Shown here piece by piece: positions 5,880 through 21,391 of a stretch of 64,000 bases of DNA (position 1 is its first letter; each line of letters opens with the position of its first letter). The translations under genes and the position numbers were made by a program. The notes below the pieces were generated by a model. That model was not told the origin of the DNA, searched no databases, and saw nothing but the letters and a program-made list of their open reading frames with translations. Where the stretch lies: NCBI GenBank assembly GCA_021372725.1, contig JAJFTV010000121.1:1-64000 (forward strand), written 5' to 3'. The DNA is from Chloroflexota bacterium. GTDB taxonomy: Bacteria > Chloroflexota > Anaerolineae > Anaerolineales > Anaerolineaceae.

Positions 5880-8800
5880 TTACTTTTCGACTCTCTTGAT
5901 CGCCACCGACAGCTCTTCGCCGTCAAACTTGAACGGTTCGGGACTGTACGCTCCCTCGGGCGCATCACCTTCTGCCAGCTCCAGGGCCAGCACTTCGCCC
6001 ATGACATATTCGCGGTGAGCCTTCATGGCCTGCTGCAAACCATCCGAGGCGTGGTAGTACAACTTGATCCGGTCTGATATCTCAAAACCGGCATCCTTGC
6101 GTATGCTCTGCACGCGCCGCACCACCTCGCGCGCCAGGCCTTCCAACCGCAGTTCGGGCGTGATGATCGAATCGACGGCCACCGTCACCAGACGGTCGGC
6201 AGCTACGGTCAGGCCCTCCACCGGATGAGTCTCCACCAGTATCTCCTCGGGGGCAAGTTCCACCGTTTCGCCATCCAGCGTCACCGGAACCGACTCGCCG
6301 GCAGAAACAGCCCGATTGACTGCATGCCCATCCATTTCAGCCATAGCCTGTTTCAGCGCCGGGAAGCGGCTGCCGAAGCGCGGCCCCAGCAGCTTGTTGT
6401 TGGGCAGAATACGGTAACTGACCAGCTTCTCGGCGTGTGAGACCGTCTCGAAAGATTTTACATTCAGCTCATCCCGGATGATCTCCACCAGAAAGTCCGG
6501 CAGCTCCCGGCCATGATCGGCGGTATAAACCAGCACGCGGGCCAGCGGTTGGCGTACCTTTAGATTCGCACTGGCGCGTGCTCCCAAACCCAGACTGGCA
6601 ATCTTTCTGCCCAATTCCATCTGCGTCACCAGTTCACTGTCCAGTACCGACGTGTCAGCCTGCGGGTAACTGGTAAAGTGAACACTTTCATACGCCTGCT
6701 CATTCATCGAGCGGACCAGGTTCTGGTACATCACCTCGGTGACAAACGGCAGTACCGGTGCCAGCAGCCGTCCCAGTTTGACCAGCACGTGATACAGCGT
6801 GGCATAGGCAGTGTTTTTATCGGCATCATGCTCGCTCTTCCAGAAACGCCGGCGGCTGCGGCGGACATACCAGTTGGTCAGGTCCTCTACAAACGGCTCC
6901 ACCGCCAGTGTCATCGCGAACGCATCCGAGTTTTCCAGCGCTTCATTCACCTGCGCCGTCACATCGTTCAGGCGGGCCAGTATCCACCTGTCCAGCGGGT
7001 TGTCGCTGACCGGGGCGGCACCTTCGGGTATTTGCGGATCGAAGCCAGCCGGGTCGGGCTGCCAGCCGTCCATTGCAGCATACGTGACAAAGAAACTGTA
7101 CACATTCCAGAGCGGGATCAGAAAACCCCGGCGTACCTCTTCCGCCCGGTTATAGCCGAACAACAGATTATTCTCGGGCTTCTGGGCGCAGTACATCCAG
7201 CGCATCACATCCACACCCATCCTGTCGGCCGCCTCGTTGAACTCAATCGAGTTGCCCCTGCTCTTGTGCATCTCTTGCCCGTCTTCAGCCAGCAGGGCTG
7301 CATAGCTGAAAACCTGCTTAAACGGCGCACTGCCATCGATGACGGTCGCCATCACCAGCAGGCTGTAGAACCAGTTGCGGAATTGACCGGGGAATGATTC
7401 ACTGATCCAGTTGGCTGGATACCACTCGCGCCAGTAAGCCGGATCAGAGCGGTAGCGGGTGGTGCTGAAGCTGACAATGCCGGCATCCAGCCAGGGATTG
7501 CCCACATCGGCTATACGATGCATCAATCCTCCGCACTTCGGGCATTTGATCTTGATGGCATCGATATAAGGCCGGTGTGGGGTATGGCCTTCAAACTGTT
7601 CCCAACCCTCAACAGCGCGCTCTTTCAATTCGATTTCATCGCCGATCACCTCGTGATGCTTGCAGGAATCACACACCCAAATCGGCAGCGCCAGCCCCCA
7701 GAAGCGTTTCTTGGAAATCATCCAGTCATGCATATTACGCAGCCAGTCCAGTTCGCGGGCATGCCCAAACTCGGGGATCCAGCGGATCTGGTCAACCACA
7801 TCCATGATTTGGTAGCGCAGGCTGCGGCTCTTTTCTTCGGCGGTCAGTTCTTCGCGCGGTTTGTCGTAGCTCTCCCCCATGCTGATGTACCATTCATCCA
7901 CCAGGCGGAAGACCAGTTCGGTTTTGCAGCGCCAGCAGGTGGGATAGCGGTGGGTATAATTCTCCACCTTGTACAGCAAACCCTTCTGTTCCAGTATTTT
8001 GAAGATCGGCTGGGCCACCTCAGACACATGCATACCGGTAAAATCACCGTAATGTGACAGGAAATAACCCTCTTCATCCAGCGGAGCCAGCAACGGGAAG
8101 CCGTGCTCACGACCCAGTTGGAAATCCTCGGCACCGCAGCCCGGGGCAATATGCACAATACCGGTCCCTTCAGCATCCCCAACATCCTCCCACAGGATCA
8201 CCTGATGAGCCTGAACAGCACTGATCTTCACATCCTTGACCAGCTCTTTCAGTTCGGTACGCCCACCGATCATGTTGGCTGCCTCCAGATCATCAAAAGG
8301 CCCGTCATAGGTCCAGCCCTCCATTTCAGTACCCTTCAGCTCGCCCAGTACCTCGTACTTGCCTTTGAGCATGTGTGTGGTACCCCTGGAAAGATAGAAG
8401 ATTTCATCCCCCTGCTTGACCTTAACGTAGGTTAATTGCGGGCCGACCGCAGCAGCCACGTTGCTGGTCAGCGTCCAGGGAGTTGTGGTCCACACCAGCA
8501 GTGACTCCCCTGGCCGGCCGCGTAGCGGAAAGCGCAGCGTTACACTGGGGTGGGTCAATTCTTCGTACCCGTCGGTGACGATTTCATGCTGGCTGATACC
8601 CGTGGCACAGCGCGGGCACCACGGCATCACATCAGCGCCCTGGTAAAGCCAGCCACGCTCCGCACAGGTCTTGATAAAACGCCAGATCATGTAGTTGTTC
8701 TCATTGGAGAAAGTGAAGTAACTTCCGCCCATTTCAGCCATGCCCAACCGACCTACCAGTTGCTCGACCGTACCTGTGACGGGTCCATCCGCTCCCTGCA

Positions 8801-9311
8801 CGGTCATCATCTGTGACGGATCTTCCACCAGCTTGTCGGCCATCTGGCGCAGCACCTCGGGATCGTTCCAGTCCATCCAGTAACCCAGCCGGACGGATTG
8901 TTCCGTCTGGACGGCGGCGTAGCGCAGGACACGCTCCTTGCATTTGAGCACGAATTTGGCCAGTCCGTATTCTTCGATATTCTTCTTGCTGGCAAAGCCC
9001 AGCGCCTTCTCGACCTCCACTTCCACCCACAGACCCTGGCAGTCAAAACCGTTCTGGTAACGCAGCTCGCGGCCGCGCATGGCCCAGAAGCGATTGAAAA
9101 CGTCCTTGTAGGTACGTCCCCACCCATGGTGGACACCCATGGGATTGTTGGCGGTAATTGGTCCATCGATGAACGACCACTTGGGCTGCCCCTTGTGAAG
9201 TGTACACATTTTGCGGAAAGCAGCGCTGCTTTTCCAGAAATCAAGCACTTCGTGCTCCTGCTCGACAAAATTCACCATGCTGGCTGCTTTTTTGAACGTC
9301 TTGGTTGACAT
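5880..9311 (-). CDS. ileS: Isoleucyl-tRNA synthetase
   Basis: Charges tRNA-Ile with isoleucine and edits mis-activated valine. The product is about 1143 residues, a usual length for the longer IleRS type. The HIGH-region signature reads GVHHGWGRTYKD and the KMSKS loop reads MHKSRGNS, both typical of the type-2 or eukaryote-like IleRS clade. The CP1 editing domain and the anticodon-binding and C-terminal domains follow in the usual order. I chose the start at 9311 (MSTKTFKK) because GAGGAAG sits 7 nt upstream; an in-frame Met nine codons earlier has no such site. The gene stands alone between its T-box leader and its own terminator, so it is controlled by uncharged tRNA-Ile. Confidence 0.97.
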   Translation of the reverse strand: MSTKTFKKAASMVNFVEQEHEVLDFWKSSAAFRKMCTLHKGQPKWSFIDGPITANNPMGVHHGWGRTYKDVFNRFWAMRGRELRYQNGFDCQGLWVEVEVEKALGFASKKNIEEYGLAKFVLKCKERVLRYAAVQTEQSVRLGYWMDWNDPEVLRQMADKLVEDPSQMMTVQGADGPVTGTVEQLVGRLGMAEMGGSYFTFSNENNYMIWRFIKTCAERGWLYQGADVMPWCPRCATGISQHEIVTDGYEELTHPSVTLRFPLRGRPGESLLVWTTTPWTLTSNVAAAVGPQLTYVKVKQGDEIFYLSRGTTHMLKGKYEVLGELKGTEMEGWTYDGPFDDLEAANMIGGRTELKELVKDVKISAVQAHQVILWEDVGDAEGTGIVHIAPGCGAEDFQLGREHGFPLLAPLDEEGYFLSHYGDFTGMHVSEVAQPIFKILEQKGLLYKVENYTHRYPTCWRCKTELVFRLVDEWYISMGESYDKPREELTAEEKSRSLRYQIMDVVDQIRWIPEFGHARELDWLRNMHDWMISKKRFWGLALPIWVCDSCKHHEVIGDEIELKERAVEGWEQFEGHTPHRPYIDAIKIKCPKCGGLMHRIADVGNPWLDAGIVSFSTTRYRSDPAYWREWYPANWISESFPGQFRNWFYSLLVMATVIDGSAPFKQVFSYAALLAEDGQEMHKSRGNSIEFNEAADRMGVDVMRWMYCAQKPENNLLFGYNRAEEVRRGFLIPLWNVYSFFVTYAAMDGWQPDPAGFDPQIPEGAAPVSDNPLDRWILARLNDVTAQVNEALENSDAFAMTLAVEPFVEDLTNWYVRRSRRRFWKSEHDADKNTAYATLYHVLVKLGRLLAPVLPFVTEVMYQNLVRSMNEQAYESVHFTSYPQADTSVLDSELVTQMELGRKIASLGLGARASANLKVRQPLARVLVYTADHGRELPDFLVEIIRDELNVKSFETVSHAEKLVSYRILPNNKLLGPRFGSRFPALKQAMAEMDGHAVNRAVSAGESVPVTLDGETVELAPEEILVETHPVEGLTVAADRLVTVAVDSIITPELRLEGLAREVVRRVQSIRKDAGFEISDRIKLYYHASDGLQQAMKAHREYVMGEVLALELAEGDAPEGAYSPEPFKFDGEELSVAIKRVEK

Positions 9312-9343
9312 TGGCAAACTTCCTCTTTCCATCGTCAAATATT

Positions 9344-9665
9344 AAAAAACCTTCCTCCCGGGCGAACCAAAAGGTTTACGCACACAGGGACGAAGGTCGA
9401 TATATTCACACTTCGCGGTACCACCCCGCTTCCCGCCGTATAACGGGCACTTGCCAGGACGTTTGGCCATGAAGACATGGCTTATTATCCCGTGTCGTTG
9501 ATAACGGACGATTCCCGGCGTACCTAATCAGGTATTATTCCATCTGCCCTTTCAGTTTGCAGCTCCGGAAGGATTTTCAACCTGTCAGGCTGCCCCGGCT
9601 CTCACCACCCCGGGTTCGCTGCCAAACCTTGTACAGGCCTACTCGTTTCCATCACAGCTTTTACG
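9344..9665 (-). promoter_or_regulatory. T-box riboswitch leader of ileS (Ile specifier)
   Basis: On the minus strand the leader contains the T-box core GAAGCGGGGTGGTACCGCG at about 9414-9432. The stem I region has a GATGGAAACGAGTA start and an AGCGAACCCGGGG...GGTGAGAGCC distal part. A likely specifier codon ATC (Ile) lies at 9572-9574, in an AAAATCC...GGAGCTG context like that of Bacillus ileS leaders. After the core a terminator hairpin follows (arms ACCTTC near 9399 and GGAAGGT near 9350, then a T-run to 9344). This arrangement predicts antitermination when uncharged tRNA-Ile binds. Confidence 0.92.
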
Positions 9666-9679
9666 TATTAATAAGGTAG

Positions 9680-9708
9680 ATTATGCCATAATCCCGAAAG
9701 GTGGTCAA
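9680..9708 (-). promoter_or_regulatory. Sigma-70-type promoter of ileS
   Basis: The -35 box TTGACC (9703-9708) and -10 box CATAAT (9680-9685) are separated by exactly 17 nt. This would place transcription start near 9673, just before the T-box stem I. Confidence 0.75.
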
Positions 9709-9813
9709 GTGCAGTGTCAGACCTGCAATGAAACAGAATAATCCCGCGGGTGTTTGTAATGGGCAAGAAAACAAATTAAAAAGCATTTTCCCTATTACTC
9801 AACCTGTCTGATG

Positions 9814-10278
9814 TCAGCTTTTCATTTGGGCTAATACAGCAAGCGGTTCATTATTATCCGGTTCCTCAAGGTATGAGGTTGCATAATGAGTAAATAATAT
9901 TTCGCCTGCTTTAGCGACTAAAAATACGGTCGGTGTGCCGAGCGATAAAAAATGTTTAACCTGAAAATACCGTGCTGCCACCCTTGAACCTTTGTCGCTC
10001 AATATCATGTAAGGTGGATTGTTACTGTTATAGTGCCTTTCAATCATTTTAGGGCCATTGGGAACAATGACCAGCACTTCTGTATTGAAATTCTTGAATT
10101 TTTGATAATCATGGCGCAACTGCGCCATATGATTTGTGCAATGAGGTCAGGCAAAACCGATGTTAAAAACCAACAGAACATTCTGCTTTTGATAAATATC
10201 AGACAATCTAATATCGACACCCTTATGATCGGGGAGAATAAAATCCGGGGCAAGGTCACCCACTGATAAACGTTTCAT
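9814..10278 (-). CDS. Peroxiredoxin-like (AhpC/TSA) protein with in-frame TGA, probable selenoprotein
   Basis: From ATG at 10278 the frame runs 154 residues to a stop at 9814 if the TGA at 10147-10149 (codon 44) is read through. The N-terminus (MKRLSVGDLAPDFILPDHKG) is typical of AhpC/TSA peroxiredoxins. The TGA falls exactly at the catalytic peroxidatic position in NIGFA-[TGA]-PHCTNH, giving a UxxC motif with Cys47. The frame stays intact on both sides and the downstream part is well conserved in character (a TPTVFLV block near the C-terminus). A SECIS-like hairpin begins 12 nt after the TGA. I infer selenocysteine at residue 44. GAGGTG lies just upstream of the start. The real stop is also TGA. 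The selenocysteine machinery genes (selA, selB, selC, selD) are not in the window. The alternative is a recent nonsense mutation. Confidence 0.8.
10107..10134 (-). promoter_or_regulatory. SECIS-like hairpin after the peroxiredoxin TGA
   Basis: On the minus strand a 7-bp stem ATGGCGC/GCGCCAT closes an AGTT apical loop and is extended by a 4-bp AATC/GATT stem past a 2-nt bulge. The loop lies about 26 nt after the TGA and has G at its second position. Bacterial SECIS elements are generally described as lying inside the coding region with a loop roughly 16-37 nt after the UGA and a G among the first loop bases, so the fit is good. Confidence 0.7.
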
Positions 10279-10384
10279 CAACACCTCAATATAGTCGTAA
10301 GCCGTAAAACCACAACCTCAAGTTGCATATTTGGCAATGATCATAACAAATATGGTTTATTGTATCAAAATTTCGAAACCAGGT

Positions 10385-10416
10385 TACCGCTCCCTATCAT
10401 AATACAGGGAGCGGTA
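10385..10416 (-). terminator. Hairpin terminator after the M32 peptidase gene
   Basis: A perfect 11-bp stem (10385-10395 with 10406-10416) with a 10-nt loop lies 22 nt after the M32 stop codon. The T-run is poor. It probably marks the end of the long minus-strand cluster. Confidence 0.65.
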
Positions 10417-10438
10417 TTCTATCGTTGTACCGATTTGC

Positions 10439-11974
10439 TTATCCCTTTGGCGGGAACAGTTGTTCATACTTGTGATTAAGATACCTGAAATACGGCTCTA
10501 CCGTTAACGAGCTACCGGTTGACCGCCGCAGCAGCTCGTCGGGCAGGAAGGCATGGCCGTGACGGTAAACATTTTCTGTTAACCAGTCCAACAAGGGTTG
10601 ATATTCGCCTTTTGCAAGAGCCGGTTCGATTTCCAGGTTTTGTTTCAAGGCTGCTTCATAAAGCTGGGCTGATACCACATTACCCAGTGTATAACTGCAG
10701 AAGGAACCAAATAAACCGGACGACCAGTGGATGTCCTGCAACACGCCCAGGCGGTTATTGGGCGGCGTAACACCCAAATATTCCTGGTATTTGGCGTTCC
10801 AGACCTCGGGCAGCTCTTTAATCGATATAGAGCCATCCAGCAGACCCATTTCAATTTCCACGCGAATCATGATGTGAAAATTGTAGGTGACCTCGTCTGA
10901 TTCGGTTCGAATCAGGCTCGGTTTAACACGGTTGACCGCCCGATAAAACTGCTCTGCATCCACATCTTTGAGCTGGTCAGGGAAATAGGATTGCAGCAAT
11001 GGAAAATGGTTATTCCAGAAGACCTGGCTGCGCCCGACCAGGTTCTCCCACATCCGTGATTGTGCTTCATGAAAACCGTAACTGGTGCCGGCAACGGCAT
11101 ACAAATCAAGCAGATCGGTCGCCAGGGCAGTGCGGGTGATGGCAGGATTTGCACCCTGTTCATAGAGCGCGTGCCCGGTTTCATGAAACAAACCAAACAA
11201 AGCCTGTGGAGCATACTTTTCGTCGTAACGGGTCGTAATGCGGACATCCTGCCGGGTAAAAGAAATCTCAAATGGATGAACAGTCAAATCCACTTTGCCC
11301 CGTTTAAAGTCATAACCGAATTTCCTGGAGATGTCGGTGGCAAATGCTTTTTGTCTGTCAGCCGGGTAGAGCCGCTCGGTCAGAAAATCATGCCGTGCTT
11401 CAGGATATGCCTTTGCCCGCTCAAGGATGGGTGTTAAGCCAGCTTTCAACTCCGCAAATAATGCTTTCAAACGTTTTGCAGTCATGCCGGGTTCATAACG
11501 AACCAGCAAGGCATCATAAGGATGATCGGAGTAACCGACTCCTTCCGCTATTCCGCGCTGAAGTTTGACCATTTTCTCTAAATACGGTGCGAAAGACTGA
11601 AAATCATCGTTCTTGCGGGCTTCAATCCAGACCGTCTGCGAGATCATTTTTAACTCATTCAGCTCTGTGACCAATGAAACTGGAATTTTTCGGGCTACTT
11701 CATAATGCTCACGCGCATAACGTACTGCACGTACGCGGTAACTGTCTTCCGGCTCACCTTTCACCTCTTTTTCAGCGGCTTCGATCATCTGAAGCGTCTT
11801 GGGGTTCGTAAACATCTCCTGGGCAATTCCAGCTACCGTGCTGATCTGATGACCACGGGTCACTGTGCCTTCTTCCGGCATCTGTGTGCGGGCATCCCAG
11901 GTTAACAGATTCAACACACAGCACAGATCGTTAATTTTTCCAATATGAGTATTAAATTCATCATAAGCGCTCAT
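10439..11974 (-). CDS. M32 metallo-carboxypeptidase (Taq family)
   Basis: Removes C-terminal residues from peptides in the cytoplasm using a zinc ion. About 511 residues, the usual length for M32. The zinc motif HETGH is in the middle (GLFHETGHALYEQGANP) and the family blocks HPFEISFTRQDVRITTRY and VTYNFHIMIRVEIE are present. There is no signal peptide. The start at 11974 (MSAYDEFN) is preferred because AAAGGA lies 7 nt upstream; a TTG nine codons earlier is an alternative. It follows the M20 dipeptidase gene by 23 nt, so the two peptidases form the last part of the island and probably finish the breakdown of imported peptides. Confidence 0.93.
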   Translation of the reverse strand: MSAYDEFNTHIGKINDLCCVLNLLTWDARTQMPEEGTVTRGHQISTVAGIAQEMFTNPKTLQMIEAAEKEVKGEPEDSYRVRAVRYAREHYEVARKIPVSLVTELNELKMISQTVWIEARKNDDFQSFAPYLEKMVKLQRGIAEGVGYSDHPYDALLVRYEPGMTAKRLKALFAELKAGLTPILERAKAYPEARHDFLTERLYPADRQKAFATDISRKFGYDFKRGKVDLTVHPFEISFTRQDVRITTRYDEKYAPQALFGLFHETGHALYEQGANPAITRTALATDLLDLYAVAGTSYGFHEAQSRMWENLVGRSQVFWNNHFPLLQSYFPDQLKDVDAEQFYRAVNRVKPSLIRTESDEVTYNFHIMIRVEIEMGLLDGSISIKELPEVWNAKYQEYLGVTPPNNRLGVLQDIHWSSGLFGSFCSYTLGNVVSAQLYEAALKQNLEIEPALAKGEYQPLLDWLTENVYRHGHAFLPDELLRRSTGSSLTVEPYFRYLNHKYEQLFPPKG

Positions 11975-11997: not shown

Positions 11998-13371
11998 TCA
12001 AGTGGCCGCGAGTTCTTTAAAATACAGCACCCAGGCTCTCAATCCATCCTTCAGGCGTTGCACGCGGAAAAATTCGTTGGGGGCGTGATAATCTTCGTCG
12101 GCTGTGGAAAATGAGAAGAAAATGGTATCTGCTTTCAGATAATTTCTAAAGGCCTCAGCAATGGGCAGCGTGGCACCGATCCTCACAATGATCGGTTCCT
12201 GCTGATAAATTTCCTTCAACACGTTTTTCGCCGTCTGCAAACCAATATGGTTCTCCGGCACGCTGTAGGCGGGCACGCCCCTTTCTGATTCTTTTATTTC
12301 CAACCGCACACCAGCCGGTCGATGTTCTTGCAAATGCCTGCTGATCTTTTCGCGGATATCCGCAGGAGACTGGTTGGGTACCAGCCGGCAACTGATCTTT
12401 GCATGGGCTTCTGCCGGTAAGACAGTCTTCATCCCCTCACCCTGATACCCACCCCACATGCCGACAATCTCAAGCGTCGGCCGAGCCCAATTGCGTTCCA
12501 ACAGGCTGAAACCAGGTTCACCAAATCCTTCCGGGGAACCCACTTCTTCCAGATATTTCTTTTCATCAAACGGCAATTCTCTGATCGCCATCCTCTCCGA
12601 TTCGGACAACTCCGCAACCTGGTCGTAGAAACCGTTTACCGCAATCCTGCCATCGGGGTCATGCAAACTGGCCAGCAGCTCTGCCAGCGCGTGCAGCGGA
12701 TTGGCGACCGCGCCGCCATGCCGCCCGGAGTGCAAATCCTTTTTCGGTCCATATACCGAGAATTCCATTGACATACTGCCACGGCTGGCGACAGTCAACG
12801 AGGGTTCGCTGATACGCCACATTGCGCCATCACAGGAAAGCACAAAATCACAGGCCAGGAGCTCGGAATGTGTCCGCATGAATTCATCGATGCTGGGGCT
12901 GCCGATCTCTTCCTCGCCTTCCAGCAAAAATTTGATATTAACCGGTAAAGCCCCGGCTGTTGATAAATACGCCCTGGTCACCTCAACAGCAGTCAGAACG
13001 GGCCCTTTATCATCAGAAACACCCCTCGCATAGATTCTGCCATCCCTGCACTCCGGTTTGAATGGATCCGTTTTCCATTTATCGAGCGGATCGACCGGCT
13101 GAACATCATAATGCCCATAGACCAGGACTGTGGGTTTCCCAGGTGCATCAAGCCATTCGGCATACACCAGTGGATTATGTTCTGTTCTAAATTTTGTGAC
13201 TGAATGCATACCGGCAGATGCCAGCTCATTTACCAGCCAGTCCGCCGCCTTTTCGATCGCTTCGTGGCAATTTGAATCAGCGCTGATACTTGGGATACTG
13301 ACAAATGCCAATAATCGATCCATGATCGGGTCGAAATTCGCGTCAAGATAATCTAAGGTTGATTGAGCCAT
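11998..13371 (-). CDS. M20 family dipeptidase
   Basis: A cytoplasmic zinc dipeptidase of the M20 (CNDP/PepV-like) type. From the Met at 13371 (MAQSTLDYL) the product is 457 residues. Metal-site motifs are present in order: GHYDVQPVDP, ARGVSDDKGP, LEGEEEIGSPS, FVLSCDGAM and, near the C-terminus, EDYHAPNE. The dimerisation domain lies between (DLHSGRHGGAVANP). An in-frame Met 24 codons upstream adds a non-homologous-looking tail and overlaps a hairpin, so the shorter start is preferred. It is separated from the AstE-like gene by 117 nt that include that hairpin, so M20-M32 may be expressed partly separately from the genes upstream. Confidence 0.92.
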   Translation of the reverse strand: MAQSTLDYLDANFDPIMDRLLAFVSIPSISADSNCHEAIEKAADWLVNELASAGMHSVTKFRTEHNPLVYAEWLDAPGKPTVLVYGHYDVQPVDPLDKWKTDPFKPECRDGRIYARGVSDDKGPVLTAVEVTRAYLSTAGALPVNIKFLLEGEEEIGSPSIDEFMRTHSELLACDFVLSCDGAMWRISEPSLTVASRGSMSMEFSVYGPKKDLHSGRHGGAVANPLHALAELLASLHDPDGRIAVNGFYDQVAELSESERMAIRELPFDEKKYLEEVGSPEGFGEPGFSLLERNWARPTLEIVGMWGGYQGEGMKTVLPAEAHAKISCRLVPNQSPADIREKISRHLQEHRPAGVRLEIKESERGVPAYSVPENHIGLQTAKNVLKEIYQQEPIIVRIGATLPIAEAFRNYLKADTIFFSFSTADEDYHAPNEFFRVQRLKDGLRAWVLYFKELAAT

Positions 13372-13424
13372 TGCTTCTCCAATCCAGGGCGACTCTATCC
13401 GCTGCTTCCTCTGTTTTGCGATAA

Positions 13425-13452
13425 GAGAGACTGCTGTTTCCAACAGTCTCTC
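13425..13452 (-). terminator. Hairpin between AstE-like and M20 genes
   Basis: The arms GAGAGACTG (13425-13433) and CAGTCTCTC (13444-13452) form a stem that can extend inward to 11 of 12 pairs. There is no long T-run. It may attenuate transcription from the island into M20-M32 or stabilise the upstream mRNA end. Confidence 0.5.
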
Positions 13453-13488
13453 ATACCAAGGGAGAAAAATGAAAATGAACGAAAGTGA

Positions 13489-14445
13489 TTAAGCTCCAAT
13501 GGCCAGCAAAGGATCATCGTTGTTGATGGCCAACGACGAGACCAGGAATAATACCCGCCCGGTTGCAGTGGCTGTAACAGTTTGCAGGGTGTTGCCCCAG
13601 ACGTCTGTAACTTTGCCCAGAACCTGGCCTTTCTGCACATCCTCGCCAACATTAATGCCCGGATACCAGAAACCGGTATGCTCGCTGCGCAGCCAGATGA
13701 AATCCTGCAAAACGATTGTTTCAACTTTCTCTGGTTTACCACCGCTCAGCATGTCATACTGGCGCATGACACGGTTGACACCCTGAACAAGACATTCTAC
13801 ATCCTTGCGCGGCCAGATGCCCTGACCACCGGATTCAACCAAAAGGGCCGGAGTACCGCCGCCCGCAACTGCCGAGAAGGTTGACCCGGCTGTGCCTACT
13901 TTGCGAACCAGATATTTGATGCCAAATACCTGTGCCAGCTCAAGCGAGGCTTTATCAACAGAAGGGTTGCCTGTTTCCGGGAAGAGTGCGAAAGGAACCA
14001 GTGCTTCGATCAAATCGCCGCCATGAAGATCAATAAAATAATTTGCCTGTTGGATCACGTTTTTAGTCAGCCAGGCTGCAATTTGTTCTGATGGACCGCC
14101 ATCCGCTTTTCCGGGGAAAACACGGTTTAGATTAACGCCGTCCATCGGATTGAGATAGATCGAGCGAACAGGAAAGCCCGCTTGATTGACGACAGGTACA
14201 ACAATCACACAGCCATTTATATCTTCAGGTTTCAAGGTTTGGCCAATTTCAAGGGCTGCCGCGGCACTGGCATATTCAGCCGCGTGGATGCCGCCAAAAA
14301 TAACCAGAGTTGGGCCGTCATTTTTCCCATTGATCAAAAACACAGGCAGGGAAAATGGCTTTCCATTTACTGGAAATTCAACAACACCTGTCACTTTCTC
14401 GCCGGCTTTGGCAGATAATGTACTGACAACACATTCCTTTTTCAC
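13489..14445 (-). CDS. AstE/AspA-like zinc deacylase, paralogue 1
   Basis: 318 residues, succinylglutamate desuccinylase/aspartoacylase family (M14-like fold). These enzymes cleave the amide bond of N-acyl amino acids. Zinc ligands fit as His54 and Glu57 (GGIHAAEY) and His141 (IDLHGGD); the catalytic Glu is about Glu204 (LLVESGGQG). The substrate-carboxylate motif is intact (NLNRVFPGK). A C-terminal barrel-like extension from about residue 235 is present, as in the shorter DUF2817/AstE-like members. It follows two creatininase-family genes by 21 nt, the same order as at 28.1-30.6 kb. The acyl group and amino acid are not known. Confidence 0.82.
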   Translation of the reverse strand: MKKECVVSTLSAKAGEKVTGVVEFPVNGKPFSLPVFLINGKNDGPTLVIFGGIHAAEYASAAAALEIGQTLKPEDINGCVIVVPVVNQAGFPVRSIYLNPMDGVNLNRVFPGKADGGPSEQIAAWLTKNVIQQANYFIDLHGGDLIEALVPFALFPETGNPSVDKASLELAQVFGIKYLVRKVGTAGSTFSAVAGGGTPALLVESGGQGIWPRKDVECLVQGVNRVMRQYDMLSGGKPEKVETIVLQDFIWLRSEHTGFWYPGINVGEDVQKGQVLGKVTDVWGNTLQTVTATATGRVLFLVSSLAINNDDPLLAIGA

Positions 14446-14466
14446 AAAATATCTCCTCTTCTCAGC

Positions 14467-15303
14467 TTATTTTTTCGCCAGGGGGCCGGTCGTTTCCACC
14501 GGGGGCAGCGTTACTTTGCGGAATTCTTCGATAAAATTAGCCAGATAGTCAGCCTGGCCTTCCAGGAATCTTTCACCAATTTCTTTGGTTCCGGTCGAAG
14601 GCTCAATTGTATAGTCTTTGGCTCCAGTTAATCCAAATTCCATCAGATCGCCGGTGTCGGTGATGTCTGCGGTAAACAGGTTCACGCCCACAACACCGCC
14701 CTGGAATTTTGTGGAATGCGGATCAAGCGTAACAAGTTTGTCGCTCAGGTCCTTATTCTTGGGGAGCCTGGCTACATCCATATCCACCAGGCTCTCATCG
14801 ATACCCAAAACCGCCGATACTTCCACATAATCGGCATGACCAATGGCCTGCCAGCTTGGATCAATGGCCGGTGCAATCTGCCACCAAACCGCCACGGCTG
14901 AAGGGATACAGCGTTCGCGCAGCCAGATGCCGCATTGGCGCAAAGCGTTTAAGTTACCGCCGTGGCCATCAATGAACAAGATGTGCGTGGTTCCATATTT
15001 CAAAAGATCTTCACAGAGGTCAATCAATACCTGACGCAGGGTATCCTCGTGTAAGGACATGGTCCCCGGAAAGGTGGTGTGATATTTGGCATAACCAAAC
15101 GGGATGGTGGGGGTGACAATGACTTTGGATTTTTTTACCAGACGGGCAGCAATCTCACGGGGAACCATAAAATCTGTCCCTACCGGGAGGTGCGGGCCGT
15201 GCTGTTCAGTTGATCCAATCGGTATGACTACGAAGGTTGTGTCTTCAAAAGCTTTTTTCGCTTTTGGCCAGGTTAATTTTTCCAGCATGTATCCTTTTTC
15301 CAT
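14467..15303 (-). CDS. Creatininase-family amidohydrolase, paralogue 1
   Basis: 278 residues. The creatininase family opens cyclic amides (creatinine) or cleaves formamides and related bonds with a two-metal site. Ligand candidates are Glu33 and His35 (STEQHGPHLP), Asp44 (GTDF), the His of DGHGGN and the Glu of HADYVEVS, the same pattern as in Pseudomonas creatininase. AGAGGA lies upstream of ATG at 15303. It is clearly homologous along its length to the neighbour at 15334-16185 (shared KYHT, FPGTM and LLKYGTTHILF blocks), so the two probably form a duplicated or hetero-oligomeric pair. The substrate is unknown; creatinine itself is not implied. Confidence 0.88.
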   Translation of the reverse strand: MEKGYMLEKLTWPKAKKAFEDTTFVVIPIGSTEQHGPHLPVGTDFMVPREIAARLVKKSKVIVTPTIPFGYAKYHTTFPGTMSLHEDTLRQVLIDLCEDLLKYGTTHILFIDGHGGNLNALRQCGIWLRERCIPSAVAVWWQIAPAIDPSWQAIGHADYVEVSAVLGIDESLVDMDVARLPKNKDLSDKLVTLDPHSTKFQGGVVGVNLFTADITDTGDLMEFGLTGAKDYTIEPSTGTKEIGERFLEGQADYLANFIEEFRKVTLPPVETTGPLAKK

Positions 15304-15333
15304 TTTGTCCTCTTTTTGTGTGATGTATGATAG

Positions 15334-16185
15334 TTATTTCTTTTGTTTTCGTAATTCGGCAGCAGGGCCTTCCTCACCCACTGGCGGGAATTTGACCTTG
15401 CGAAATTCCTCAATAAACTCTGCCAGATAGTCCGCCAGAGAATTTAAGATCTTGTTGCCCATCTCGGCGCTGGCTGTCGTCGGTTCGATATCATAGTTCT
15501 CTGCCGCAGACTCGCCGTATTCCAGCATATCGCCGGTCACGGTCACATCGGTCATCACACCATTAATCATCAATGTATGCCCTTTGAACCTGACAACACC
15601 CAGGTTATCCAACTGCAGAGCGGGTGTCAGGCTGCGGTTTTTATGGTTCTTCGCTACCTGTAAATCGACCAGCGCGGGATCGATCGCCAGCATGGCGGCC
15701 GTTTCAATATAATCGGCATGTCCGATCATGTTATAGCTGGGATCGGCGATGGTGGCCATCTCCCACCATGATGCGACAGATGCCGGTACGCATCTTTCAC
15801 GCAGCCATTCACCGGCCTTTTTCAGCGGGCCATGATTGCCGCCATGGCCATTTACAAACAAAATATGAGTGGTTCCGTACTTCAATAAATCCTCACAGAC
15901 ATCGATTAAAGCATGTTGCAGCGTCTCTTCCTGCAATGCCATGGTTCCGGGAAAACCGGTGTGATACTTGGCATATCCGAAAGGCAGGATGGGGGTGACA
16001 ATCACCTTTGACCTTTCCGAAACGCGCCTTGCAAGCTCCTTTGCGACAATCCAGTCGGTTCCAGTTGGCAGATGAGGGCCATGCTGTTCATTTGAGCCGG
16101 TTGGGATGACAACAACAGTCGTTTCTTTAAAAGCTTCCCGTGCTTGCGGCCAGGTAAGCTTCTCCAATAAATAACCCTTTGTCAT
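15334..16185 (-). CDS. Creatininase-family amidohydrolase, paralogue 2
   Basis: 283 residues. The same metal-site pattern is present: NEQHGPHLPTGTD, NGHGGNHG and GHADYIETAA. GGAGGG lies upstream of the ATG. It is followed 30 nt later by its paralogue and then the AstE-like gene. It differs from paralogue 1 mainly in the C-terminal third (ITVTGDMLEYG against ITDTGDLMEFG regions), so a related but distinct substrate or a structural partner role is possible. It lies downstream of the amidohydrolase gene with a 47-nt gap. Confidence 0.88.
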   Translation of the reverse strand: MTKGYLLEKLTWPQAREAFKETTVVVIPTGSNEQHGPHLPTGTDWIVAKELARRVSERSKVIVTPILPFGYAKYHTGFPGTMALQEETLQHALIDVCEDLLKYGTTHILFVNGHGGNHGPLKKAGEWLRERCVPASVASWWEMATIADPSYNMIGHADYIETAAMLAIDPALVDLQVAKNHKNRSLTPALQLDNLGVVRFKGHTLMINGVMTDVTVTGDMLEYGESAAENYDIEPTTASAEMGNKILNSLADYLAEFIEEFRKVKFPPVGEEGPAAELRKQKK

Positions 16186-16232
16186 GTCTTTAAACCCTCC
16201 AAAATTTCCTATTAGTCCAAAGCGGGAAGATA

Positions 16233-17453
16233 TCAGATTTCTTCTCCGCCCTTATAGACTCGAACGATATTTTCTTTCCGCTGCAATATGCTCACATCGG
16301 TCAACGGGTTACCTTTGACAAACACCAGGTCTGCCAGTTTGCCTGCTTCGATGGTACCGATATCTTTATCCATATCCAGGCATTCAGCTCCATTTCGGGT
16401 AGCTGCGATGATGGCCTCCATGGGTGAATATCCACCGTTTACCAGCTCTTCAAGTTCCATGGCATTTTTTCCGTGATATGCCCAGAACCCGGCATCCGTA
16501 CCGACACATACTTTTACACCCGCCTTGTGCGCCCGTTCCAGAGATACCCAGCGGTCATCACATACTTTAAGAATCCAGTTCCAGCCGCCTTCACTTGAAC
16601 CCGTCCGCTCCTTGCCATAAGCAAGACCCTGCGTGTGAGTCGTCAGTGTCGGCACATAAAAGACTCCTTTCTCTGCCATCATTTTGGTTTGCTCATCGCT
16701 CAACCACGGGGCATGTTCAATGGAATTTAAGCCGGCCCGTATGCCGTCGGTTATTCCCTGGCCGCCATGCGCATGTGCGGCTACGCGCACTTTCGCCCAA
16801 CGGGCTTCTTCACACACAGCAGCCATTTCCTCATAACTCATTTCCTGACGGTACGGTTCAGACAAATCATGTGAACCGCCGGCAGCATTCACCTTCAGCG
16901 TATCAGCTCCCCGTTTAAGCTGCTCACGTGCCGCTCTGCGGCAGCCCCAGGGGCCATCACCCACACCGGTTCTTCCCCAGACCATCACTTCCGGCACAAC
17001 CGATGCTTTATCCATGTGCCCGCCCGTTACGCAGATACCCTGACCGGCTGTTCTCATCCGTGGGCCAATTACCAGGCCGGCGTTAATCGCATTCCGCAAG
17101 GCCACATCCACGTAAAACGGTGCATCCAGGCATCGTATGGTTGTAAACCCTGCCTCCAGATCTTTCCTGGCATTGGCAGAAGCACGAAAGGCAAGATCAG
17201 CTTGAGAATGTGTGATTTTATCCAGCTCATAGTCTGACAGGCCGCCTTCCACATGGACATGCGTGTGGCAATCCACCATACCAGGGATGACAGTGTACGC
17301 CGTTGCATCGATCACCTCGTCTTCCGGCGAAACCTGCACAGCCTCGGTTGGCAGAACAGCCTTTATCCGGCTGCCTTCTATCAGAATTGAGTAATTTTCC
17401 ATTACATATTCATGAATACTGTCAATCAGAATACCGCTACGAATGATTTTCAC
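16233..17453 (-). CDS. Metal-dependent amidohydrolase (Xaa-Pro/Xaa-Arg dipeptidase-like)
   Basis: 406 residues, amidohydrolase superfamily with an N-terminal small beta domain and a TIM barrel. Metal ligands can be placed: His63 and His65 (DCHTHVH), a probable carboxylated Lys187 (DTLKVNAAGG), His227 (AAHAHGG), His247 (SIEHAP) and Asp320 (VGTDAG). This is the pattern of the prolidase-like or imidazolonepropionase-like branch that includes uncultured Xaa-Pro and Xaa-Arg dipeptidases. There is no signal peptide, so it is cytoplasmic. It lies 9 nt downstream of the ATPase genes of ABC system A, which suggests it acts on what that system imports. Confidence 0.85.
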   Translation of the reverse strand: MKIIRSGILIDSIHEYVMENYSILIEGSRIKAVLPTEAVQVSPEDEVIDATAYTVIPGMVDCHTHVHVEGGLSDYELDKITHSQADLAFRASANARKDLEAGFTTIRCLDAPFYVDVALRNAINAGLVIGPRMRTAGQGICVTGGHMDKASVVPEVMVWGRTGVGDGPWGCRRAAREQLKRGADTLKVNAAGGSHDLSEPYRQEMSYEEMAAVCEEARWAKVRVAAHAHGGQGITDGIRAGLNSIEHAPWLSDEQTKMMAEKGVFYVPTLTTHTQGLAYGKERTGSSEGGWNWILKVCDDRWVSLERAHKAGVKVCVGTDAGFWAYHGKNAMELEELVNGGYSPMEAIIAATRNGAECLDMDKDIGTIEAGKLADLVFVKGNPLTDVSILQRKENIVRVYKGGEEI

Positions 17454-17462
17454 AATGCGCTC

Positions 17463-18485
17463 CTATTTCACAGCGAAACAAGATACAAAATGACCGCTGG
17501 ATTTCTCTTCCAGTCTTGGGAATTCCACTGCACAGCGGTCGAATGATAGCGGACAACGCGGCCTGAATGGGCAGCCAGGCGGAATATTGATTGGATTGGG
17601 AGGTTCACCGGCAATGGCGATCGCCTTCTTGCGCTTACGCGGGTTCGCCACTGGTGCAGCAGCCAGCAGCGCCTGTGAGTATGGATGCAGAGGTAAGATG
17701 AACAAATCTCTGGCAGGAGCCAGTTCTACAATGCTGCCCAGATACATGACAGCAACGCGGTCGCTTACGTGTTGTACCAGACGCAGGTCATGGGTAATAA
17801 ACATCATAGCCAGTTGATATTTTTCTCGTAATTCCATCAACAGGTTAATCACCTGCGCCTGAATGGATACATCCAGTGCCGAAACGGGTTCGTCCGCCAC
17901 AATAAATTTGGGGTTTACTGCCAACGCGCGCGCCAGCCCCACCCGTTGCCGCTGACCACCGCTTAATGAGTGCGGGTATCTCTCTGCGATATCAGGTCCC
18001 AGACCAACCGTGTTGAGCAGATTTTTCACACGGTCGTCAAGCTCACTAACGCTGCAAATGTGGTGTACCAGATTCGGTTCACCAACTATCCGGCCGACTT
18101 TCTGTCGCGGGTTTAATGATGAATAGGGATCTTGAAAAACTACCTGCATCTTGGAGCGCATCGTTACCACATCCCGGCCTTTCATCTCCAGGAAATTTTT
18201 GCCCTCGAATAACACCTCGCCTTTATCCGGTTCATACAGGCGCAAGATACAACGTCCAAGCGTAGTTTTGCCACAGCCACTTTCACCTACCAGGCCAAGA
18301 CACTCACCGGCTTTAATAGCCAGGTCAACTTCATAAACCGCCCGCAGATATTCGGGTTTCTTTCCCAGCGCCTGGCGTAAAACCGATTTACCCAGCACAA
18401 ACGTTTTCGAAAGATTTTTAACCTGCACTAAAGGCGTCTCAATAGTATCCACATTTATTTTCTCTTCCACCGGGTTCAGCTCCAT
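17463..18485 (-). CDS. Peptide ABC transporter ATPase, OppF-like (system A)
   Basis: 340 residues. One of the two ATPases of an Opp/Dpp importer. Walker A GESGCGKTTLGR, signature LSGGQRQRVGLARAL, Walker B FIVADEPVSALD and the H-loop FITHDL are all present. The oligopeptide-transporter C-terminal extension with its Cys cluster (PPGCPFRPRCPLSFDRC) is intact. The start overlaps the end of the OppD-like gene by 10 nt, indicating translational coupling. Confidence 0.95.
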   Translation of the reverse strand: MELNPVEEKINVDTIETPLVQVKNLSKTFVLGKSVLRQALGKKPEYLRAVYEVDLAIKAGECLGLVGESGCGKTTLGRCILRLYEPDKGEVLFEGKNFLEMKGRDVVTMRSKMQVVFQDPYSSLNPRQKVGRIVGEPNLVHHICSVSELDDRVKNLLNTVGLGPDIAERYPHSLSGGQRQRVGLARALAVNPKFIVADEPVSALDVSIQAQVINLLMELREKYQLAMMFITHDLRLVQHVSDRVAVMYLGSIVELAPARDLFILPLHPYSQALLAAAPVANPRKRKKAIAIAGEPPNPINIPPGCPFRPRCPLSFDRCAVEFPRLEEKSSGHFVSCFAVK

Positions 18486-19456
18486 ATTTCCTCAAATCGA
18501 ATACAGGCAGAGAAATGGCCTGGCTTTACTGGCCTGAGCTGCGGATCTGCTGTTCTACAGGCATCCATCACATAACGGCAGCGGGGAGCAAACGAGCAGC
18601 CTGCCGGCAAATTAAGCAAATCAGGCGGGTTCCCCTGTATCGGGACCAATTTTTTACCTTTCAACTCACCGGTTGGGATTGATTCCATCAAGCCGAGTGT
18701 GTATGGATGCCGGCTGTTCTCGAACAGCTCGATCACATCTGCCATCTCCACAATTCTGCCAGCATACATCACTGCCACCCGATCGCAGAGCTGTGCCACA
18801 ACACCCAAATCGTGGGTTACCCACACCACACTGGCGCCAGTCTCAGCCTGAAGATCTTGAACCAGCTTGATGATCTGATCCTGAATGGTCACATCCAGGG
18901 CTGTCGTAGGTTCATCGGCCAGCAAAACTTTTGGACGGCACGATAGAGCAATGGCGATCATTGCCCGTTGGCGCATACCTCCGCTGAATTGATGGGGGTA
19001 CTCGCTAATCCGGCGTTCAGGCACAGGTATGCCCACCTTGCGCAGCAGCTCGATGGATTGATTGCGGGCTTCTGACTGAGATACACCTTCATGCTGCACA
19101 ATCGTCTCCATCATTTGTTCCCCGATCGTCCAGACCGGGTTAAGTGCTGTCATCGGCTCCTGCAAGATCATAGAGACTTCTTTTCCGCGATATTGCACCA
19201 ATCGGCTCTCCGGCCAATCCAGGATATCCATTTCATTGTAAAAAATCTTTCCGTTGACAATTTTCCCAGGTTCCGGGACAAGCCGCAGGATGGAACGACA
19301 GGTCATACTTTTACCGCTGCCGCTTTCTCCAACCAATCCCAATACTTCACCTTCCTTGACAGAAAATGTCACACCATCTACAGCTTTTACCAAACCATCC
19401 TGAAGTTTGAAATAAGTTTTTAGATCCTGAACTTTTAAGATTTCCGCCATATCCAT
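18476..19456 (-). CDS. Peptide ABC transporter ATPase, OppD-like (system A)
   Basis: 326 residues from ATG at 19456 (MDMAEILKV), with GGATAGTGAGA upstream. An open frame extends 44 codons further but lies within the end of the permease gene. Walker [13 protein letters not shown], signature [15 protein letters not shown], Walker [13 protein letters not shown] and the C-terminal Cys extension ([17 protein letters not shown]) are complete. It pairs with the OppF-like subunit to drive system A. Confidence 0.95.
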
Positions 19457-19488
19457 TCTCACTATCCTAAAAACTGGTTCCTTGGAGC

Positions 19489-20361
19489 TTAATCCTTCGG
19501 CCGCAGTAAGCCGGATAAGCCGTCTCCGAACAAGCTGAAAGAAAAGCCAACAACGGCCAGCGCCAATCCAGGGAAAATACTCAACCATGGAGCAATGGTA
19601 ATAAATTCGCGGCCATTGGCAATTTCAACACCCCATTCCGGTTTTGGTGGTTGTACACCAAGCCCCAGGAATCCCAGGGACGCTCCGGCCATAATACACA
19701 TAACAACATCTGACATGGCATACACAATATTCGGTGAGATGATATTGGGCAACAAATGCTGGATCAAGATCCGCCAATCACTGTATCCCAGCGCCTTGGC
19801 AGCCAGGACATATTCCTGGTTCTTCGCCACCAGCACTTCTCCACGAGTAATCCTGGCGTAAGAAATCCAACCCACCAGAATCAGGGCAATATACATGTTC
19901 ATTAAACCTGGTCCCAGCACTGCAAGAATCACAATCACCAACACATAAAACGGAAAAGCGACGTTGATATCCACAAACCTCATTAATATTGAATCAATCG
20001 CTCCGCCATAATAACCGGATACCGCTCCTATCACGCATCCAAAAACGAACGGGATTGAAACGCAAATAATCCCAATTGAGAGGTCGAGCCGCGAGGCAAT
20101 GATGATACGCGACAGGATATCTCTACCAAATTTATCGGTACCCAGCAAATGTCCAGTTGTGCCTGGTGGTTTTAAGATAGCTTGATAATCGGTTTCAATG
20201 GGATCGTATGGCGCCAGACTCTCAGCGAAAAGGGCGACAAGACAGATTAACAAAACTGCAACGACGCCAAGGACAAATGTCCTTCTCCTCACAATAAACT
20301 GCCAGAGATGTTTCCAGGTGTTTTTACCGGTATTTTTTTTCTCAAGCGTTACAACAGTCAT
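19489..20361 (-). CDS. Peptide ABC transporter permease, OppC-like (system A)
   Basis: 290 residues. An N-terminal basic stretch and a first membrane helix are followed by the OppC-type periplasmic domain (APYDPIETDYQ) and a five-helix permease core. The ATPase-coupling EAA-type loop (ALGYSDWRILIQHLLPN) and the GASLGFLGLGVQPPKPEWG motif near the C-terminus identify the C-type permease. It is adjacent to OppB-like (12-nt gap). Confidence 0.94.
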   Translation of the reverse strand: MTVVTLEKKNTGKNTWKHLWQFIVRRRTFVLGVVAVLLICLVALFAESLAPYDPIETDYQAILKPPGTTGHLLGTDKFGRDILSRIIIASRLDLSIGIICVSIPFVFGCVIGAVSGYYGGAIDSILMRFVDINVAFPFYVLVIVILAVLGPGLMNMYIALILVGWISYARITRGEVLVAKNQEYVLAAKALGYSDWRILIQHLLPNIISPNIVYAMSDVVMCIMAGASLGFLGLGVQPPKPEWGVEIANGREFITIAPWLSIFPGLALAVVGFSFSLFGDGLSGLLRPKD

Positions 20362-20373
20362 GAAGAAGCCTCC

Positions 20374-21315
20374 TCATAGAGTCACCCTTGGATCCAGGAA
20401 GGAGTAAACAATATCGTTCGCCAGGTAAATGAACGATACCAGAATCCCAAAGACCAGTGTCAGACCCTGGACAACGATGTAATCTCGCCCGTTGATACCC
20501 TGTATCATCGTGTAACCCATGCCGGGGATGGCAAAAACGGTCTCAATAACCACTGAACCACCAACCATCGAACTTAAATAAAGACCGACAATGGTGACAC
20601 TAGAAATCGCAGCATTTCGCAGTACATGCCGTAAAAAAATCAGTCGTTCACGCAGCCCTTTCGCATGGGCAAAGACAACGTGCTCCGACTGTAAAATGCT
20701 AATGATGTTATCGCGCATGTTACGGGTTAACACAGCCGTCATGTGCAGGCTTAATGTGACAGCCGGCAGGAATAAATCCTGTAAACGATTAAGAAAACCT
20801 TCCCTGACGCCCCCAACCGGGAAAATTGGAATTTTCACTCCAAAAAGAATTAGCAGGATAATCCCAACCCAGAAATTGGGTGTTGATAACGTACCCATCA
20901 ACACTACTCGAACCACCTGGTCAAACCAGCCATTTTTATGAAGCGCAGTCAGAAGCGAAAGCGGAATAGAAACAACTAATGAAATAAACACTGCATAAAA
21001 GGCAAGGAACAGAGTTAGAGGCAGGCGGTTTTGAATTAATTCAGTCACAGGTGTGCGCAGGATGACCGAATCACCAAGCTGGCCTTTTGCAATGTTCTGT
21101 AAAAATATTACAAATTGCATATACAAAGGTTTATCAAGACCCATATAACGGGTTAACGCTTCCACCCGTTCAGGTGTTGCTTTTAACCCCAACATGACTG
21201 TCGCCGGGTCACCAGGGATTAATCTGATGATAAAAAACACCACCACCGTGATGATGATAATTGTAGGAATAGCCTGTAATATTCTTCCCACAATGTAGAT
21301 AAACTTGTCATTCAT
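20374..21315 (-). CDS. Peptide ABC transporter permease, OppB-like (system A)
   Basis: 313 residues with six predicted membrane helices. Family blocks are present: FIIRLIPGDPATVMLGLKAT near the start, FAHAKGLRERLIFLRHVLRN (coupling loop) and SVVIETVFAIPGMGYTMI. It is separated from the solute-binding-protein gene by 76 nt that hold a strong stem-loop. Confidence 0.94.
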   Translation of the reverse strand: MNDKFIYIVGRILQAIPTIIIITVVVFFIIRLIPGDPATVMLGLKATPERVEALTRYMGLDKPLYMQFVIFLQNIAKGQLGDSVILRTPVTELIQNRLPLTLFLAFYAVFISLVVSIPLSLLTALHKNGWFDQVVRVVLMGTLSTPNFWVGIILLILFGVKIPIFPVGGVREGFLNRLQDLFLPAVTLSLHMTAVLTRNMRDNIISILQSEHVVFAHAKGLRERLIFLRHVLRNAAISSVTIVGLYLSSMVGGSVVIETVFAIPGMGYTMIQGINGRDYIVVQGLTLVFGILVSFIYLANDIVYSFLDPRVTL

Positions 21316-21344
21316 TCAACAAAGCCCTCCAGATGACAGTGGGG

Positions 21345-21374
21345 TTGTGAGCTGGCCTTTCAGCCAGCTCACAA
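21345..21374 (-). promoter_or_regulatory. Stem-loop after solute-binding-protein gene A
   Basis: A perfect 12-bp stem (21345-21356 with 21363-21374) with a 6-nt loop lies between the binding-protein stop codon and the OppB start. There is no T-run. Such a structure typically stabilises the binding-protein mRNA and lowers permease expression; here that role is inferred. Confidence 0.7.
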
Positions 21375-21391
21375 TCTTGCCTGAATTCGAC

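Follow-up and report, generated by a model that had tools for sequence, protein, structure and literature searches.

The frame examined here lies in a window of 64,000 nucleotides, the whole stretch of DNA analysed (contig JAJFTV010000121.1, positions 1 to 64,000), from an Anaerolineaceae (Chloroflexota) genome. It raises two linked questions: whether a TGA codon in the middle of an otherwise intact gene is a lesion or a codon for selenocysteine (Sec, U), and, if the latter, what kind of redox enzyme the gene encodes. The evidence assembled below indicates that this is almost certainly a functional selenoprotein gene whose UGA is read as selenocysteine. That confidence is based on the UGA, the SECIS hairpin, the Sec machinery, conservation and the predicted fold, and the substrate lies outside it.

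A reading frame with one internal TGA

Read from an ATG at 10278-10276, the frame extends for 154 codons, and its sole internal stop is the TGA at codon 44; the true stop is a second TGA at 9816-9814. The initial annotation had given the extent of the frame, the codon count and the single TGA correctly, and the strand is minus (Table 1). With the internal TGA read as U, the region translates to MKRLSVGDLAPDFILPDHKGVDIRLSDIYQKQNVLLVFNIGFA-U-PHCTNHMAQLRHDYQKF..., and the peroxiredoxin sequence described earlier as intact on both sides of the TGA is indeed so, with protein-level constraint on either flank. A GAGGTG just 5' of the ATG is a possible Shine-Dalgarno sequence. Under the standard code the region yields only a 104-aa open reading frame starting at Met51, which falls within the hairpin and downstream of the active site, and this fragment, which has no active site, is all that standard gene calling would retain.

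Table 1. Features of the locus and its surroundings, in window coordinates
Feature	Position	Strand	Basis
UxxC peroxiredoxin-like selenoprotein gene, 154 aa + stop, Sec predicted at codon 44	9814..10278	minus	PF00578 match, homologues
In-frame TGA taken as selenocysteine, U44 of NIGFA-U-PHC	10147..10149	minus	TGA in homologues, SECIS
Putative bacterial SECIS hairpin: lower stem AAUCA/UGAUU, upper stem UGGCGC/GCGCCA, AGUU apical loop	10107..10134	minus	folding, conservation
Possible extended -10 promoter, TTGATA-17-TATGAT, ~60 nt upstream of the ATG	10340..10368	minus	consensus match only
T-box leader	9383-9664	minus	Rfam match
ileS	5880-9338		
Hydrolase and transporter cluster	11998-23053	minus	ORF translations only

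The surroundings were also surveyed. When ileS, an M32 carboxypeptidase and an M20 peptidase were sought as conserved neighbours in close loci, none was found. The T-box leader lies directly upstream of ileS and scores 85.9 bits, slightly under the Rfam gathering score of 93. The cluster at the other side of the gene, assigned from ORF translations only, comprises M20-type and AstE-like hydrolases, two tandem creatininase-like paralogues, an amidohydrolase and a peptide ABC transporter.

Hairpin and decoding machinery

The SECIS-like hairpin with an AGTT loop that the initial annotation had placed about 26 nt after the TGA is present, with the loop beginning 25 nt past the UGA. The sequence 3' of the UGA folds as AAUCA-UA-UGGCGC-AGUU-GCGCCA-UGAUU with a minimum free energy (MFE) of -13.7 kcal/mol, and over a 37-nt stretch its z-score is -4.55, with 0 of 200 shuffles equally stable. 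The published bSECIS model (PMC13188914) specifies a loop of 3-9 nt, a stem of 4-16 bp, 16-37 nt from UGA to loop and an MFE of -7.5 kcal/mol or lower, together with a G, often GG or GU, within the first two loop positions. The hairpin conforms to this published description throughout (loop AGUU, 6-bp upper stem, 25 nt, -13.7 kcal/mol). When positions 9300-10500 were compared with Rfam to look for a known family of SECIS, the T-box leader was the only match; the absence of an Rfam SECIS match is no evidence against a SECIS.

Conservation of the hairpin at the nucleotide level far exceeds that of the protein around it. Of 94 distinct genes, 91 share an unchanged SECIS core GCGCAGTTGCG, although many of their proteins have no more than 35-45% identity to the window protein. 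Ala52 is encoded by GCG in 93/93 genes, compared with a GCG share of 30% in the rest of the set, and Leu54 by TTG in 93/94, compared with 25%. No other codon of the gene is under synonymous constraint as strong as these two, the median being 0.07 bits per codon. Binomial probabilities for the 31-gene set, 4e-23 for Ala52 and 2e-17 for Leu54, are illustrative and ignore shared ancestry. In a covariation test the stem was 97.3% paired, with a single double change, to A-U in one homologue (L044; one of six pairs). Compensatory changes are few because the stem is almost invariant.

The source genome, a draft of 3.55 Mb in 200 contigs that is 92% complete, encodes the full set of factors whose presence the selenoprotein reading predicts: SelA (561 bits), SelB (367 bits), SelD (353 bits) and a 96-nt tRNA-Sec with anticodon UCA (68.3 bits, above cut-off). 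A lack of selB or selC, the finding that would have counted most directly against a selenoprotein, is thus not what this genome presents. The SelD gene (L026, G000:C159:1066-2001) carries its own in-frame TGA, in the context NCAG-U-AAK and followed by GGCGCAGGTACTGCGCC, and its product is by its sequence a Sec-containing selenophosphate synthetase. In addition, four of the seven PF00578 matches in the genome contain one in-frame TGA each. Besides the window gene on contig C16, these are a UxxC paralogue on the minus strand of C57 (L004, G000:C57:3012-3467), 37% identical to the window protein and with the same SECIS core, and two TxxU-type peroxiredoxin genes, L002 (G000:C18:13839) and L003 (G000:C45:17868), with the motifs WTPI-U and FTFV-U. 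Selenocysteine would seem to be in routine use in Anaerolineaceae redox proteins.

In the mechanism we propose, the hairpin that follows the UGA is recognised by SelB carrying Sec-tRNA(UCA), which recodes the UGA as selenocysteine 44. Insertion of Sec at codon 44 in vivo is what the gene and its decoding apparatus together predict, and the expected product would be a 154-aa protein of peroxiredoxin/thioredoxin fold with a U-P-H-C active site.

Conservation of the TGA and its hairpin

Among the matches listed from 251 genomes of the order, all those down to an E-value of 2.5e-22 have one in-frame TGA, and down to 7.5e-21 only three are without it; these three homologues (L060-L062) have TGC, for Cys, at the Sec column. 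A wider scan of 84,980 named GTDB genomes used the peptide pattern H[ML]AQLR[QHR]D[YS], which lies after the Sec codon. The pattern is biased toward genes that encode the MAQLR peptide but toward no particular codon choice, and, being degenerate and downstream of the Sec codon, it leaves the scan unbiased toward TGA. In the best 80 loci, TGA occupied the Sec codon in 80/80. The TGA-bearing loci span Chloroflexota, Desulfobacterota, Ignavibacteriota, Spirochaetota, Thermomicrobiota and Marinimicrobia, so that homologues from several phyla have retained both the TGA and the hairpin. Homologues also occur in the cultured Anaerolineaceae Anaerolinea thermolimosa and Bellilinea caldifistulae (L100/L102). 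Homologues have TGA or Cys at this column, as expected for a Sec position, and no close relative was found that combined another residue with nearby frameshifts.

The nearest Cys homologues, L060-L062, are informative in their own right. In the MAQLR region they read CTC-GCG-CAG-CTG-CGC, CTG-ACT-CAA-CTT-CGG and CTT-TCC-CAA-CTG-CGC, and the AGTT-loop hairpin is absent from all three; since the Cys genes use other codons at the SECIS region, the hairpin goes with the TGA. All three come from one family of the order, and in a quick tree they group with a TGA-bearing gene of that family (L045; support 90), as would be expected if Sec had reverted to Cys and the SECIS had then decayed. L060 retains GCGCAGCTGCGC, which is one base off the SECIS core and has the look of a SECIS in decay after such a change.

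Across 61 genomes of the family, tRNA-Sec was detected in 28 of the 31 with the TGA-SECIS pattern and in 22 of the 30 without it (Fisher P 0.11); with a tRNA-Sec in most genomes, the comparison says little. The pattern had no match in a viral collection. Three relatives with the pattern gave no strong tRNA-Sec match; SelB exceeds the cut-off in two of these, and in the third, G210 (87% complete), neither tRNA-Sec nor SelB is convincing. Incomplete assemblies are the likely cause of these missing matches. One genome that is 99% complete (G263) has the pattern, SelB above the cut-off and a borderline tRNA-Sec match of 47.0 bits; its tRNA-Sec is possibly divergent or missing.

These observations bear on two simpler accounts of the TGA. 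A pseudogene, or a sequencing or assembly error that created a TGA by chance, would leave the C-terminal 104 aa from Met51 as the product; the standard-code ORF list does give this fragment, and the genome is a draft that is 92% complete. The codon is TGA, however, in about 100 independent assemblies from several phyla, the flanks are constrained as protein on both sides in addition to the RNA-level signal, and Met51 lies inside the SECIS, past the active site. The initial annotation had argued that a chance nonsense mutation would rarely strike such a position and also come with such a hairpin, and retention of TGA and hairpin over several phyla goes far beyond chance. We reject this account on the conservation of both elements in independent genomes, and consider it highly improbable. 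A genome-wide change of code, by which TGA would specify another residue such as Trp or Cys, found no support in our analysis and has a negligible probability: TGA terminates the window gene itself, which is our reason for rejecting a code change, as well as several homologues; a dedicated tRNA-Sec, SelA and SelB are present; and Trp was never found at the Sec column. The earlier proposal of a selenoprotein in this lineage is supported by every computational check put forward with it: the decoding genes, the TGA/Cys column and the agreement with the bSECIS rules.

The conserved TGA and SECIS could be used for testing SelB-SECIS specificity, and they suggest a simple re-annotation rule for the group, namely TGA-xx-Cys followed by GCGCAGTTGCG 24 nt after the first TGA base.

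Which enzyme, and which relatives

The protein belongs by profile to the AhpC-TSA family (PF00578, 77.2 bits, cut-off 26), with a Redoxin match (PF08534) of 61.3 bits. An AF2 model with Cys substituted for Sec has a pLDDT of 90.6, and among solved folds it most resembles BCP proteins and AhpE (Z 22.6, rmsd 1.9); ResA-type structures are also among the matches, at a TM of ~0.73 versus ~0.85-0.89 for peroxiredoxins. Canonical peroxiredoxins are defined by a PxxxT/SxxC motif together with an Arg. Profile alignment to solved BCP/PrxQ structures aligns U44 with the Thr/Ser of F-T-x-x-C and C47 with its peroxidatic Cys, and both U44 and C47 are invariant in 31 sequences. The Pro of PxxxTxxC corresponds to position 40, which is Arg, Ile, Val or Leu, and the catalytic Arg to Pro116, invariant in the 31 sequences; what the protein has is UxxC (UPHC) instead of TxxU, and neither the Thr/Ser at -3, the Pro at -7 nor the Arg of a canonical peroxiredoxin. 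The earlier statement that the TGA lies exactly at the peroxidatic position is thus off by three residues.

This placement weighs on the choice of enzyme. The reading of the initial annotation, a canonical peroxiredoxin with Sec as the peroxidatic residue, draws on the PF00578 and PF08534 matches and on BCP and AhpE as the closest solved folds, but Sec falls on the Thr of TxxC, C47 fills the peroxidatic column, position 40 and Pro116 depart from the canonical residues, and the genome has separate TxxU peroxiredoxin genes on C18 and C45; we regard this reading as unlikely. A dedicated thiol:disulfide oxidoreductase of thioredoxin/ResA-like type, with little peroxidase activity, would account for the UxxC motif, the ResA-type fold matches and the invariant Pro, which probably corresponds to the cis-Pro of thioredoxins. 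The overall fold is nearer to that of peroxiredoxins than to ResA, and we give this alternative not quite an even chance. Of the original designation, selenocysteine peroxiredoxin (UxxC), the selenoprotein and UxxC parts hold and the peroxiredoxin part is doubtful. Because Sec occupies the N-terminal position of UxxC and an invariant Pro replaces the catalytic Arg, "Prx-like thiol:disulfide oxidoreductase" appears the safer name.

By analogy with established thioredoxin-fold chemistry, the nucleophile that attacks a peroxide or disulfide would most likely be Sec44, which stands at the N-terminal end of the active-site helix, like its thioredoxin counterpart. Cys47 would be expected to resolve the resulting selenenic acid or mixed selenenylsulfide, giving an Se-S bridge that thioredoxin or another reductant might recycle. 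The activity, the attacking residue, the substrate and the reductant are all inferred.

No NCBIfam model reaches its own cut-off for the window protein, and the Sec form is therefore probably missed by automatic annotation. One such model, for a SelL-related redox protein (NF040769), is matched by 31/31 aligned members at E < 0.001 (best E 3.3e-25), whereas the window protein scores 54.1 bits, under the curated cut-off of 120.

The added interest of the gene is modest, lying in its near-invariant SECIS core and in the use of selenoproteins by Anaerolineaceae. In a quick tree the window protein falls in a branch of 20 sequences (support 100, with a long stem of 1.04), nearly all from Anaerolineaceae/Anaerolineales. 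We suggest tentatively, as a possibility with the balance against it, that this branch is an unrecognised, so far Sec-only UxxC subfamily with its own substrate, and that the near-invariant 11-nt SECIS core GCGCAGUUGCG reflects unusually strict SelB recognition or a coupled constraint on the MAQLR active-site helix. The core is shared by Chloroflexota, Desulfobacterota, Spirochaetota, Ignavibacteriota and Marinimicrobia, and Desulfobacterota homologues (L104, L108, L138) fall in the same tree as the window gene.

Judged by its sequence, the gene fits a layout already described, and the class is not new. In the portions of the literature available to us, the Sargasso Sea survey described a Prx-like family with UXXC, as opposed to the TXXU of Sec-peroxiredoxin (PMC1088965), the GOS survey a "Prx-like 1" family (PF00578, UxxC) of 225 selenoproteins (PMC2398784), and a 2026 review lists a "Prx-like thiol:disulfide oxidoreductase" with PF00578 and UxxC (PMC13188914); in Chloroflexi, a 2006 survey recorded no more than three selenoproteins (PMC1794560). 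As these sources present them, such proteins share with the window gene the PF00578 domain, UxxC with an N-terminal Sec, a SECIS right after the UGA, and an occurrence in Sec-decoding anaerobes including Desulfobacterota. The window gene differs in belonging to a long, well-supported Chloroflexota branch (NxGFx-U-x-HCxNHMAQLR, EEPDN) that goes unnamed in those portions; its link to the described family, whose reference sequence is WP_010940744.1, is one of shared layout. TxxU peroxiredoxins (PrxU) also have the PF00578 fold and an active-site Sec, but there Sec replaces the peroxidatic Cys, whereas in the window protein it would stand three residues earlier, with a Cys at the peroxidatic place. 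BCP/PrxQ and AhpE, the closest solved folds, carry T/S-x-x-Cys-P and an Arg where the window protein would have U-x-x-C and a Pro.
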